Assembly (NCBI GenBank): GCA_019429465.1
Contig: JAHYIV010000003.1
Location: forward strand, 1-64,000
Reading direction: 5' to 3'
Length of the DNA: 64,000 bases
Origin: Desulfoarculaceae bacterium
GTDB taxonomy: Bacteria; Desulfobacterota; Desulfobulbia; Desulfobulbales; Desulfocapsaceae
Below are positions 51,175-56,945 of the stretch, piece by piece. The notes beneath the pieces were generated by a model that saw only the letters and a list, made by a program, of their open reading frames with translations, had not been told where the DNA came from and did no database searches. The translations under genes and the position numbers were made by a program. Within the stretch, counting starts at the first letter, position 1; each line of letters opens with the position of its first letter.

Positions 51175-51330
51175 TGGGCGTTTGAATCCCTCCGGAGATA
51201 ATCATTGTTAATAGAGGCTGACCTGAACGCTCCCGCCTTAATCTGTACACAAGGTGAATAGTTCTTCTTTGTCACATTGTTTCACCGTCGTATCCGGCGA
51301 CTCTTTAACCCCCCTTAATCCCCCCTGAAT

Positions 51331-53701
51331 CAGCTGTTCTTTACCCATATTTTCGCTGGACACCGGAGTTATGGGACGTTAGAGGTGGATGTTCGAGGAT
51401 GGCACTCATGACCTTCCACATTTCGGTGATGTCGTCTCATCGTTGCAGTCCAAGCCAAAGCGTTTGGGTTCCTGGTTCTCCGTCACTCTTTCTGCCCAGA
51501 AAGCCACCGAGAACGGCAACAATACGGATGGCTTCCCGCAAGGTTGGAGGCTTTGAAGCAGGAGTTGGATTTTTGGTGACAAAGGTTACCAGGGCTTTCC
51601 ACACCGCCTCCTCAAAATAGACGGAACAGGGGACATCGGGGGTTTCACGGCCAAGCTTGGTGAGATGATGAATACGCCAAGCCACGACCAAGTCAATGGC
51701 CAGACATGCTTCAAGGCGGTTCGCGCTGCCCAGCTGCCTGTTTTCTATCAGGCAGCCGCTTTTCAAGGTGCGGAAGAATATCTCAATGGTCCATCGTTTG
51801 GCGTACCACGCAAGGCGCTCACAGGCGTCTGCGAAATTCTCGGTGGGGGCCGTAGTCAGCAAGACCCACTTGAGCGGTTCAACACCCTCGGGAGCATCTT
51901 CTTCTGAGGCGATAATCGCCCGGATGGACAGTGGTTTTGCATCCGCATTCCGTTTGGGGACGGCCAGCATGACCTTGCTGTGGCGAACCGAAAGCCTTGC
52001 CGTGCGAGCTGGGCGATTCCCTCTTCTGGGAATGACAAGCTCCTGGATACCGGCCTCAGGGCATTGCCTCAGATGTTCGAGCAGATGCCCTTGTTCCGCC
52101 GCCAGCTCGCGATCATGTCGAGCGCGTACCAGCAGCAAAGGGGCGTTCGGTGTTCTGTCGGCCAGGGAAAAAAGCTCATAGATGTCCGCTTCCCGGTCGC
52201 CAACACTGACAACCGTTGTTTCCGGGCATGATTTCGCGATGCTTGCGGCCGCGCTGAAGCTTTTCAGCCATTTATTGCTCTCCTTCTCTGTAATGGGAAG
52301 GGAATGTCGTTTTGCCTTTTTACCATACTCTTCAGGCTTTCTTGCCCAGCATTGGGCATCGATCAGGCCTAAAGGGGTGCCTGCCGGATTGACTGCCAGT
52401 GTGGCGTGCAGCATAAGGCCGACAATACCTTCGGGACTGCTGCCGATTGGCCCGAGATTCTCGGTTGCCGGATGGGTGCTGTAATTCAGGCTGCTGCTGT
52501 CCTGAAAGGCCAGAACGATTTTCTCTTCGGCAATTCGCCTGGTCGTTGATTCGATATGAGGTGTGAGTATATTTTGCAAGGTGGCCTTTTTATGATCAAA
52601 AAAACGATACGCGGCTTTAGTTTTTGCCCTGCTGCCGCAGGTTTGCGGAATACTTGCCTGCGGCTGGGTGTAACGATCCCGTCCCAGGGTGACAAGCCGC
52701 TCTACCAGTCTGGCGTCACCAAGGGGCGCACGGCCCCATTCCTGCTCTGCCCAGTCACCGGTGGGGGCAACGCTTGTTGTGGTGGAACCCCCAAGCTGTT
52801 CACGCCACTTTCGATGGAGAGGGTAAAGATAGATCTCCTTGGGTGTTCCAACCCGATCATGGTTCCGATCCTGGCGACCCCGGCCGGTCGTGGAACCGGC
52901 ACGAATCCAGTTTGCCGCACGATAGCTCGTGCCGGGGAAACGACTGGTGTCCACAAAGGTTTCCACAAGAAGCGGCTTCGCGCCAAATTTGTTCCGCCAG
53001 TCCTGCCGAAGCAAACGGACGGCCTTGCCAAGAATATGGGAGGCAAGGTGGGGGACGTGGACTCCCGGGTGGATAAAAAAACGACTGTTGCCGATAACCT
53101 GATGCAGATTGTTCCGGCGAGACTGGTCATCCCACCCGACAAAACTGTCCCTGGCAGCTATCCGGAAAGCAGCGCTGGCAAAGGAAAGGGCGCCGATATA
53201 GCCATGCACGGAACTCTGCACGAGATATCGTAATCCGGAATAAAAGGTGCTGCCACCCAGATAATGACCAGCCATAAGCGATTTCCAGATGGCGGCTTGT
53301 TCACTACGCGGGTTGTCGATCAGTACCAGATTGACACTGCCAAGCTCCTTCAGCGTACAGGCAACTGCAGGGCGAACATAAGGCTCACAAGAAACGGTTG
53401 GTGCCATAAATCCAGGAACTGGCGATGCTTCAGGCAAGCAAACAAGGCCGAGACTGTGTAATGTAGAAATTGCCTTGCAACAAGCGATCTCCTTTAAGCG
53501 ACCGGTAGCACTGCGCCAGTCAAAGGACTCGCACAACTGTTTTGACAACGAACGACGGCTGATCGCAGGATTCACATCAACGGTACGTTGGATGTCTCCA
53601 ATGGTCTCTTTCGCAAATGTCAGGCCGCATAGTTTCATGCAGCAATTTATATACAAAAACTCTCCCGGTGTTCAGCATTATTTGTGGGACATGGACAGCT
53701 G
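51331..53701 (-). mobile_element. IS element of IS4/IS50-like group with imperfect TIRs
   Basis: CAGCTGTTCTTTACCCATATTTTCGCTGGACACCGG (left) vs CAGCTGTCCATGTCCCACAAATAATGCTGAACACCGG (right, reverse complement); no clear TSD. Confidence 0.8.
51437..53656 (-). CDS. DruA (DUF4338)-like domain fused to IS4/IS50-type DDE transposase (739 aa)
   Basis: N-terminal DruA-like HYLGGSTFYSGLRYLVQSSVHGYIGALSFASAAFRIAARDSFVGWDDQSRRNNLHQVIGNSRFFIHPGV; C-terminal DDE motifs FQDSSSLNY, VSVGDREADIYE and YAKRWTIEIFFRTLK (YREK). Confidence 0.85.
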   Translation of the reverse strand: MYINCCMKLCGLTFAKETIGDIQRTVDVNPAISRRSLSKQLCESFDWRSATGRLKEIACCKAISTLHSLGLVCLPEASPVPGFMAPTVSCEPYVRPAVACTLKELGSVNLVLIDNPRSEQAAIWKSLMAGHYLGGSTFYSGLRYLVQSSVHGYIGALSFASAAFRIAARDSFVGWDDQSRRNNLHQVIGNSRFFIHPGVHVPHLASHILGKAVRLLRQDWRNKFGAKPLLVETFVDTSRFPGTSYRAANWIRAGSTTGRGRQDRNHDRVGTPKEIYLYPLHRKWREQLGGSTTTSVAPTGDWAEQEWGRAPLGDARLVERLVTLGRDRYTQPQASIPQTCGSRAKTKAAYRFFDHKKATLQNILTPHIESTTRRIAEEKIVLAFQDSSSLNYSTHPATENLGPIGSSPEGIVGLMLHATLAVNPAGTPLGLIDAQCWARKPEEYGKKAKRHSLPITEKESNKWLKSFSAAASIAKSCPETTVVSVGDREADIYELFSLADRTPNAPLLLVRARHDRELAAEQGHLLEHLRQCPEAGIQELVIPRRGNRPARTARLSVRHSKVMLAVPKRNADAKPLSIRAIIASEEDAPEGVEPLKWVLLTTAPTENFADACERLAWYAKRWTIEIFFRTLKSGCLIENRQLGSANRLEACLAIDLVVAWRIHHLTKLGRETPDVPCSVYFEEAVWKALVTFVTKNPTPASKPPTLREAIRIVAVLGGFLGRKSDGEPGTQTLWLGLQR

Positions 53702-53946
53702 AAAATAAGGAGGGGGATAAAGTTACATCTGGTTCCTCTTTCCGGGCGGGTTCACATTGTTGCCGATGGCGCGGTCGTCGGCAAGACGGGCGAGCCATGG
53801 TCCATGGCAATACCCCATGATCACGAAGACAGCGGCGTCACCAGAGTTATCGCTTGCTCCCCGTGCTGTTCACGGCTATACCGCGAATCAAAATTTATAA
53901 AAATATGGCCTTTGATGCTAGTTTTCACAACAAAGGAAGGTTTTTC

Positions 53947-55483
53947 ATGGAGACATCGCCGAAGACACAGTTTTCAGGGCCCAGTACCATATCGGGACAA
54001 TCGTCTGCCAGTCCAAGCCACTGCCGCCGGATACAGTGCCTTAATCGATGCGTATGGACTGGCGGTGCCCTTGCCCCGGACACTTTACGCCACCGGCGAG
54101 CGCCATCGGATCGTGGAGCAGGACGGTTGGCGTATTCTGACCCCGCGCCACGCGCCCGAACCGAGTCTTGCCGGCCATCTCGGCTTTGCCTTGAAGTACG
54201 AGGGTGGATCTCGCCGTCCTCAAACGGCTGTTCCTGGCCACCGGCCCCGATCCGATCCGGGCCCTGGTCCGGGCCGCTCCGACCGGCATCTACAGCCGCC
54301 GCACCTGGTTTCTTTACGAATGGCTGACCGGCCTTACCCTGGATCTGGAGGACGCCACGGGCGGACGCTATGTTCCTGTTGTCGATCCCAAACAGCAATA
54401 CACGATGGCCGGCGAAAATTCCCGGCGGCATCGCGTGAAAAACAATCTTCCCGGCACCCCCGGATTTTGCCCGCTGGTGTTTCGCACGGAAGCTCTCGAC
54501 CAGTTTATGACACTGTCCCTGCGGCAACGCGCCCGCGCCTTCATAGCCGACGTGCCGCGTGATCTCCTGGCCAGAATGACCGCCTTCCTGTTGCTCAAGG
54601 ACTCCAAATCCAGTTATGCCATTGAAGGTGAACGCCCGCCTCAGGACCGTATTCAGCGTTGGGCAGGGCGATCGGTGAAGCCGGCCGCCGCCCCCTTGAC
54701 CTGGCGGAGATGCTCAGGCTGCAGCGGCTGGTTATCGGTGATGCCAGGTTTGTCAGTCTGGGAATCCGCCTGGAGGGCGCTTTTATCGGTGAACATGACC
54801 GGCAGACCCACCAGCCGCTGCCGGATCATATCTGCGCCCGGCCGGAAGATCTGAGCTTGCTGATTGACGGCATGATCGCCTTTGATCAGGGGGCGGCCAA
54901 ACAGCTCGACCCGGTCATTGCCGCCGCGATCTTGGCGTTTGGTTTCGTCTATATCCATCCCTTCGAGGACGGCAACGGCAGAATTCATCGTTACCTGATC
55001 CACCACGTTCTGGCCCAGCGCGGTTTTAATCCGCCGGGAGTGGTGTTTCCGGTATCCTCGGCAATCCTGGAACGACTGGATGATTACCGCCAGGTTTTGG
55101 AAGACTATGCGGGGCGCCTGCTGCCTCTGATCGAATGGGCGCCGACCCCACGCTCCAATGTGCAGGTCTTAAATGATACCGGCGACTTCTACCGCTTCTT
55201 CGATGCCACCCCGCAGGCGGAATTTCTTTACGCTTGTGTCCGGAAGACTATCGAGGAAGACCTGCCGCAGGAGACTGAATTCTTGCGCCGACATGATCAG
55301 TTCCGGGGAGCAGTCCAGGCCCTGATTGACATGCCGGACCGCACCGCTGAATTGCTCCTGCGCTTTCTGCGGCAAGGCTGCGGCCGGTTGTCCGGACGAG
55401 CCCGGCAACGGGAGTTCGCGGCCCTGACCGACAAGGAAGCCGACTATTTCGAAAAAATATACGCCGATATTTTCCAGGAATAA
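53947..55483 (+). pseudogene. Fic family protein, broken by multiple frameshifts
   Basis: Consecutive ORFs in different frames; final part keeps HPFEDGNGRIHR; shifts near 54000, 54200 and 54655. Confidence 0.8.
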
Positions 55484-55514
55484 AAAGTGGCACCAAAGAC
55501 AATCCCCACCCCCG

Positions 55515-56165
55515 TCACTGCGAGGCGCGCCAGCAAGGTGGCAGTCCAGAGAGGTGTGGGGCCATGGTCGCCAGGACCTCCTGCGTTACATCACTGCTTT
55601 CGTACAAACGGGCCGGATTCTCTGGATTGCTTCGCTGCCGCTCGCAAAGACGATGTCCCTGGCACCTTCGCAGCCATCCGTCACTGCGAGGCGCGCAGCA
55701 ACGTGGCAGTCCAGAGGTGTGGGACCCCGGTCACTCTGACCTCCTGCGTTACTTCACCCCCTTCGCACAAACGGGCGGCATCCTCTGGATTGCTTCGCTG
55801 CCGCTCGCAAAGACGATGGCCTTGGCACCCTTCACCGCCCTTCACCCGTCACTGCGAGGCGCGCAGCAACGTGGCAGTCCAGGGGTGTGGGACCCCGGTC
55901 ACTCTGACCTCCGGCGTTACTTCACCCCCTTCGCACAAACGGGCCGGGTACTCTGGATTGCTTCGCTGCCGCTCGCAAAGACGATGTCCCTGGCCCCTTC
56001 ACCGCCCTTCACCCGTCACTGCGAGGCGCGCAGCAACGTGGCAGTCCAGAGGTGTGGGACCCCGGTCACTCTGACCTCCGGCGTTACTTCACCCCCTTTG
56101 CACAAACGGGCGGCATCCTCTGGATTGCTTCGCTGCCGCTCGCAAAGACGATGTCCCTGGCCCCT
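55515..56165. repeat. Tandem array, about 167-bp units (4 copies), each unit a large imperfect inverted repeat
   Basis: TCACTGCGAGGCGCGCAGCAACGTGGCAGTCCAG... starts near 55515, 55681, 55849, 56016; ends CTCTGGATTGCTTCGCTGCCGCTCGCAAAGACG. Confidence 0.92.
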
Positions 56166-56335
56166 TCCCCGGAAGTTGTGTAATACCTGGGGGGCTGGAG
56201 GGGGTGGAGGGGTATTCGGGGCGGGGGTTGGTTTGATGTTATTCCGGGCCCGGATTGCGCTGGCGCTTCATTCGGGCTACTGGTTGTATCAGGGGCTGCT
56301 GGCTACTTGCTCCCGTGGCTGTGTGGCGGGGCGGG

Positions 56336-56945
56336 CTAGAGTGGTTCCTGGTCCTTGAGCGTCTTGATGATCGTGGCTGCTCCCATGACGATGAGACAAT
56401 CGCCTGCCAATACGCGGTCGGCCGAGATTATGGTCGGCGAGGATTCGCAGATTGCCGGACAGTCGCTGGCCGATATCCTGAATAATAAGAAAGCCGATCG
56501 CAATCTGGCCATGCAGAGAATCGATCTCTTTCTTGTCGGACAGCAGCTTGACAATGATGATGGTACTTGAAAAGGTCAGCGCCACGGCGACATAGGCCGC
56601 GGTGAGGTAGTCCATATTCAGGGCGACGGCGATGACGAAGCCGATTGCCGAGGTAAAGATGATCTGCCCGAGGCCGGTGGCCAGAGCGACCGGGCCGGTG
56701 GTGCGGATCAGATGCAGATCAAGTTTGAGGCCGACAATAAAGAGCAGCAGGGCAATGCCGATCTCGGCCAGCAATTCGACCTGATCATAGCTTTGGATAA
56801 TACCCAGGCAGGAAGGGCCGGCCAGAATGCCGGTGGCCAGAAACATGATGATCAGGGGCTGGCGCAATTTCTGGCCGACGATGCCGACAAGCGTCGCCAG
56901 GCCTAAAATGGCGGCAATTTCTACAAAGGCGCTTCCTTCTGTCAT
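56336..56945 (-). pseudogene. CPA2-type monovalent cation:proton antiporter, internally deleted and frameshifted
   Basis: N-terminus [38 protein letters not shown] joined to a TrkA_C-like tail SADRVLAGDCLIVMGAATIIKTLKDQEPL in another frame. Confidence 0.75.

Follow-up and report, generated by a model that had tools for sequence, protein, structure and literature searches.

A 2365-bp insertion sequence (IS) lies in the window, as we call the whole 64,000-nucleotide stretch of DNA that was analysed. Sequence comparison and structure prediction identify it as an IS4-family, IS50-subgroup element whose transposase carries a probable N-terminal Mom-like acyltransferase domain. The element extends from one terminal inverted repeat (TIR) to the other (51334..53698), with the transposase on the minus strand, and its layout matches that of its relatives. 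The same module of about 300 amino acids, known as "DruA", was found fused to three transposase families, IS4/IS50, IS701 and ISAs1, and as an adjoining gene beside IS66, ISKra4, ISL3, IS1634 and IS4/IS50 transposases. Representatives of all these partners (IS4, IS701, ISAs1, IS66, ISKra4, ISL3 and IS1634) scored above the NCBIfam cut-offs.

The 739-aa open reading frame (ORF) at 51437-53656 (minus strand) is a single frame, open throughout, that encodes both the DruA-type domain and the transposase, as the initial annotation had stated. Translation likely starts at the in-frame ATG at 53638, because the relatives begin with the pattern 'M..CG..F'; the fusion protein (51437..53638) would then have 733 amino acids. 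Along this protein, Pfam detected DruA (PF14236, residues 114-263, E = 1.2e-31, 110.5 bits against a cut-off of 27), Tnp_DNA_bind (PF14706, residues 300-356, E = 9.7e-18) and Dimer_Tnp_Tn5 (PF02281, residues 656-737, E = 1.3e-20), in this order. The NCBIfam IS4_3 model gave 406 bits, with a cut-off of 160. In the AlphaFold model of the full-length fusion (pLDDT 84.9), the C-terminal part matched Tn5 transposase (4dm0) in Foldseek with E = 9e-29. The assignment to the IS4/IS50 type and the significant PF14236 match of the N-terminal part, both expected from the initial annotation, were thus confirmed. So was the complete DDE triad with Y-(2)-R-(3)-E-(6)-K: D385, D486 and E624, together with Y617-R620-E624-K631, were invariant in an alignment of 20 fusions.

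We divided the protein into three parts. The transposase part comprises residues 300-738 (51440..52756, minus strand), as supported by Pfam, NCBIfam, the alignment and Foldseek. The core with a predicted GNAT fold comprises residues 106-288 (52790..53338, minus strand). An N-terminal helical domain, residues 6-75 (53429..53638, minus strand), with AlphaFold helices at 15-27, 33-43 and 55-67, is possibly a DNA-binding winged helix. This domain was missing in the alignment from the IS701 and ISAs1 fusions. An assembly join of two separate genes was ruled out by the position of the window within a 139-kb contig and by the presence of the fusion in unrelated genomes.

The transposase itself is an ordinary IS50 relative. 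It shares with IS50/Tn5 the domain order, the DDE triad, the YREK signature, the Tn5 fold and, in the relatives of the window element, a 9-bp target duplication. It differs from IS50/Tn5 in the additional N-terminal Mom/DruA-type domain of about 290 amino acids and in the TIR sequence.

The Mom-like nature of the additional domain was suggested by several comparisons. Modelled on its own (65 sequences, pLDDT 90.6), the domain was predicted to have a GNAT fold, and its best match among 350,542 PDB chains in Foldseek was the phage Mu methylcarbamoylase Mom (8bv8, E = 2.4e-6). The fold match was partial (TM 0.58 by target length) and the sequence identity was low, about 20%. With hhalign, a profile of the IS-type domains matched a Mom alignment at 95.3% (E = 2e-8). 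Matches to the PHROG family phrog_1384 ('Mom-like DNA modification protein') were found in 28 of the 40 IS-type domains, including that of the window protein (E = 1.6e-5). The Pfam Mom model PF25680 was above its cut-off in only one protein, the ISAs1 fusion L061, and was not among the listed Pfam matches of the window protein. At E <= 1, no PDB sequence matched the DruA profile, and a search for the DruA domain in phages gave no match. The initial annotation had considered a strand-processing role for the domain; the predicted fold is that of an acyltransferase and not of a nuclease, so this idea was not supported.

The residues characteristic of Mom were present in the GNAT core of the window protein. 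In the numbering of the 231-aa Mom record, Mom H48, Y49, R101 and D139 aligned with H130, Y131, R191 and D235; G146, Y149, A151 and N153 aligned with G241, Y244, A246 and N248; these eight are invariant in Mom. In addition, Mom S114 and G158 aligned with S205 and G253. Mom S114 is the serine replaced by alanine in the inactive mutant that was crystallised (NSES to NSEA; S124A in the entry name), and the position of S205 was occupied by S or T in 16 of 16 IS-type domains compared. H130 was kept in every IS-type domain, and Y131, present in the window protein, was replaced by P in one fusion clade (L110 and L163); the locus L217 lay outside this residue comparison. Among the fusions, the GNAT core was conserved (0.630) to the same extent as the transposase part (0.631). 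The likeness to phage Mu Mom therefore covers the predicted GNAT fold, the H-Y, R, S, D, G-x2-Y-x-A-x-N and G positions, and the company of a DDE transposase, which Mom has in Mu. Apart from the low identity, the IS-type protein differs from Mom in its additional N-terminal helical domain and in its association, by fusion or pairing, with IS transposases.

The fusion was not unique to the window: we found about 25 relatives across many bacterial phyla. Among 395 genomes of the same phylum, there were about seven further fusion loci. An earlier scan of genome contigs with a single protein as query gave no match. When GTDB genomes were scanned with a DruA alignment, at least 583 relatives were obtained, of which 80 loci were kept for analysis. 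Matches of antisense DruA ORFs to one reference (L065x), itself an antisense ORF, were discounted as an artefact. A fusion with a Tn5-type transposase was found in 22 of these 80. The hosts of the fusions belonged to Pseudomonadota, Acidobacteriota, Bacillota, Chloroflexota, Bacteroidota, Planctomycetota, Elusimicrobiota, Atribacterota and others. Fusions of DUF4338 (PF14236) with a DDE transposase are thus recurrent in unrelated genomes of several phyla.

At two loci, L127 (Alicyclobacillus mengziensis) and L163, DruA and the Tn5-type transposase were encoded by overlapping neighbours. In a tree of DruA domains, all Tn5-fused domains formed one clade (SH-aLRT 99), which also contained the domain of L163. 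The DruA of L127 clustered outside this clade, with the IS66-type DruA; the pairing with an IS50 transposase therefore arose at least twice. Members of the same IS50 transposase group without DruA were also found, which shows that the group as a whole can do without the domain.

For the other transposase families, the association took different forms. IS701 fusions were found at L051-L057 and ISAs1 fusions at two loci (L060 and L061). In both ISAs1 fusions, the second half of the transposase lay in the -1 frame, and the same A7 stretch, ACACCCAAAAAAAGT, occurred where the two ORFs overlap (L060:5435-5534; L061:5264-5300), which suggests programmed frameshifting. In 36 of the 80 loci, a separate DruA gene of about 300 codons adjoined an IS66 transposase gene. 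In a further 13 loci, the partner transposase was not assigned, and these are outside the family counts.

The IS66-type arrangement was found in complete elements. The Accumulibacter genome ACC003 had at least 14 copies of an element composed of IS66 and DruA with the TIR GTAAGTATTCGG, and in 14 of 14 copies, a perfect 8-bp target site duplication (TSD) was present outside the TIR and the DruA gene lay within. A second element of this kind was present in 4 copies in a genome consisting of a single contig (G488). The presence of DruA within multi-copy IS66 elements implies that the module belongs to mobile elements and is not a chance neighbour. Its recurrence in at least seven IS families also supports the earlier proposal that the domain works in transposition. 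Two loci had other arrangements. In Thiodictyon pTs485 (L063:5830-10743), a DruA gene, an integrase gene and IS91 and IS4 transposase genes lay between two pieces of a DUF2235 gene, as if they had been inserted together. At L037:1477-3524, two DruA-type genes were adjacent in opposite orientation, at least one of them with an ISKra4 transposase.

Our proposal is that the domain probably works alongside the transposase as an acyltransferase of the Mom type that modifies DNA bases. A CoA donor would supply an acyl-type group, which in Mom is methylcarbamoyl, and the domain would attach it to a base in DNA, probably adenine. Being tethered to the transposase or produced together with it, the domain would come close to the IS ends that the transposase binds and could mark the element or nearby DNA. 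Mom protects the DNA of phage Mu, itself a DDE transposon, from restriction, and Dam methylation controls transposition of IS10 and IS50. As in the case of Mom, the mark might shield DNA carrying the element from restriction on entry into a new cell. As with Dam methylation, the presence or absence of the mark at the ends might control transposition. One point against the proposal is that the benefit of DNA modification for a single-copy IS is not obvious.

A different explanation, which we consider unlikely, is that the domain has no catalytic role and recognises DNA, helping the transposase to find its ends or its targets, for example palindromes. The predicted helical N-terminal part could bind DNA, and the DruA-IS50 elements were often at the centres of palindromes (L089, L090, L092, L094, L101, L107 and L127; permutation p < 1e-4 for 17 elements), with 9-bp target duplications that were identical at 9 of 9 positions in L090, L092, L094, L107 and L127. 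However, DruA-less relatives, L058 and L210, were likewise within palindromes (hairpin-like sites), and the Accumulibacter copies of IS66 with DruA were not. The choice of palindromes therefore belongs to the transposase group without need of DruA. These two observations ruled out target choice as a general role of DruA; the initial suggestion of a DNA-recognition role was not supported as far as targets are concerned. In addition, the Mom-type active-site residues are kept, which DNA binding alone would not require.

Somewhat more doubtful still is the explanation that the domain is a GNAT acyltransferase acting on a protein or a small molecule and not on DNA, for example by adding acetyl groups to the transposase or to a host factor. 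The remaining PDB matches of the domain model in Foldseek were GNAT acetyltransferases, mostly of proteins or polyamines, which favours this explanation. Against it, the best fold match was the DNA-modifying Mom, the conserved residues were those of Mom, and no named phage family other than a Mom-like one was matched.

The initial annotation had likened the N-terminal part to DruA of the Druantia anti-phage systems. The family assignment (PF14236/DUF4338) stood, and the identification with Druantia did not. With the PADLOC DruA model, the domain of the window protein scored 18.5 bits over 48 residues, compared with 397 bits for a true DruA. No Druantia partner such as the large DruE helicase was found at 48-58 kb of the window, where the largest ORF was the 739-aa fusion itself. 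For comparison, we used five DUF4338 proteins encoded on plasmids and in genomes; in two cases, a DEAD/DEAH helicase gene lay downstream. The four long ones among the five had the RDxxIGW stretch in common with the IS type, but they had no equivalents of H130, R191, S205, D235, G241, A246 and N248, all of which the window protein keeps. The low PADLOC score, the missing partners in these 10 kb and the differing active-site residues ruled out a Druantia locus. DruA of Druantia type I thus shares with the IS-type domain its Pfam family and the RDxxIGW stretch, but it is longer, is accompanied by a helicase gene and lacks most of the Mom residues.

None of the five Druantia-type proteins matched phrog_1384. 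In hhalign, the IS-type profile matched Druantia-type DruA at 96.8%, while the Druantia-type profile had no direct match to Mom (0.5%). Matching both families by its profile, the IS-type domain forms the link between them. A possible recruitment of DruA into defence from mobile elements, as suggested in the initial annotation, fits these profile comparisons. It is improbable that the domain is present on the IS by chance, as a passenger with a function in anti-phage defence of the host or the element, like Druantia DruA: the common Pfam family and the 96.8% match would agree with this, but the Druantia partners are missing, the Druantia residues differ, and in-frame fusions with three transposase families favour a role in transposition.

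Returning to a Mom-like base modifier acting with the transposase, we extend the proposal tentatively, with slightly less than even confidence: at least seven unrelated families of DDE ISs may carry such a DNA-base modifier, with marking coupled to transposition, and Druantia DruA may be a derived form that lost the active site and was taken for defence. The distribution suggests that many simple mobile elements bring their own DNA-marking tool. If true, DNA modification would belong to the standard equipment of the simplest mobile elements, the DruA family would gain a testable function, and ready-made fusion enzymes, with a base modifier tethered to a Tn5-type transposase, would be available. 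We know of no function described for DruA; base modification of the Mom type has been known mostly from phages.

What may be new here is the association of the Mom-type domain with many IS families. We found no description of it in passages from the open-access literature, and domain databases or other papers may already list such architectures. Burroughs and colleagues called the DUF4338 domain in DndF a GNAT(-like) domain (PMC10853773); it is the same Pfam domain, and its context there is Dnd defence and not ISs. Mom-like GNAT domains fused to endonucleases have been described in jumbo phages (PMC7824862). These fusions likewise join a Mom-type domain to a DNA-processing enzyme, but the partner is a phage nuclease and not an IS transposase.

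The copy in the window looks like an old insertion. Its TIRs, on the C-terminal side of the ORF (51334..51366, CTGTTCTTTACCCATATTTTCGCTGGACACCGG) and on the N-terminal side (53665..53698, CTGTCCATGTCCCACAAATAATGCTGAACACCGG in minus-strand reading), pair as CTGTTCTTTACCCATA...GCTGGACACCGG with CTGTCCATGTCCCACA...GCTGAACACCGG. The initial annotation had noted imperfect TIRs bracketing the ORF, and this TIR type proved to be shared with the relatives. The flank CCCCCCTGAATCAG (51320..51333; CTGATTCAGGGGGG on the minus strand) is half of a palindromic target, and the opposite half has decayed. The two 9-bp flanks matched at 5 of 9 positions, so the target duplication is not intact. An in-frame TGA is followed by 31 further codons (51344..51439, minus strand, DDITEMWKVMSAILEHPP...) that resemble the C-terminal tail of the family. 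The frame downstream of the TGA stays open and family-like over these codons, and the window copy is therefore shortened by a premature stop. The copy itself may be inactive owing to this TGA. The fusion was present in 1 copy in the source genome. A separate DruA-type ORF of 300 aa was found on another contig of this genome (G000:C42:4051-4950, L002).

The element sits just downstream of an ORF that, read by eye, we take to be trkH. Apparent pieces of a Fic-family gene, possibly broken, were found in three frames at 53684-55483, with an HPFEDGNGR motif in 54659-55483. Two overlapping ORFs at 55487-56358 were built of repeats (TARRA.NVAVQ..GTPVTLTS.VTSPP..KRA) and are apparently repeated intergenic DNA and not genes.
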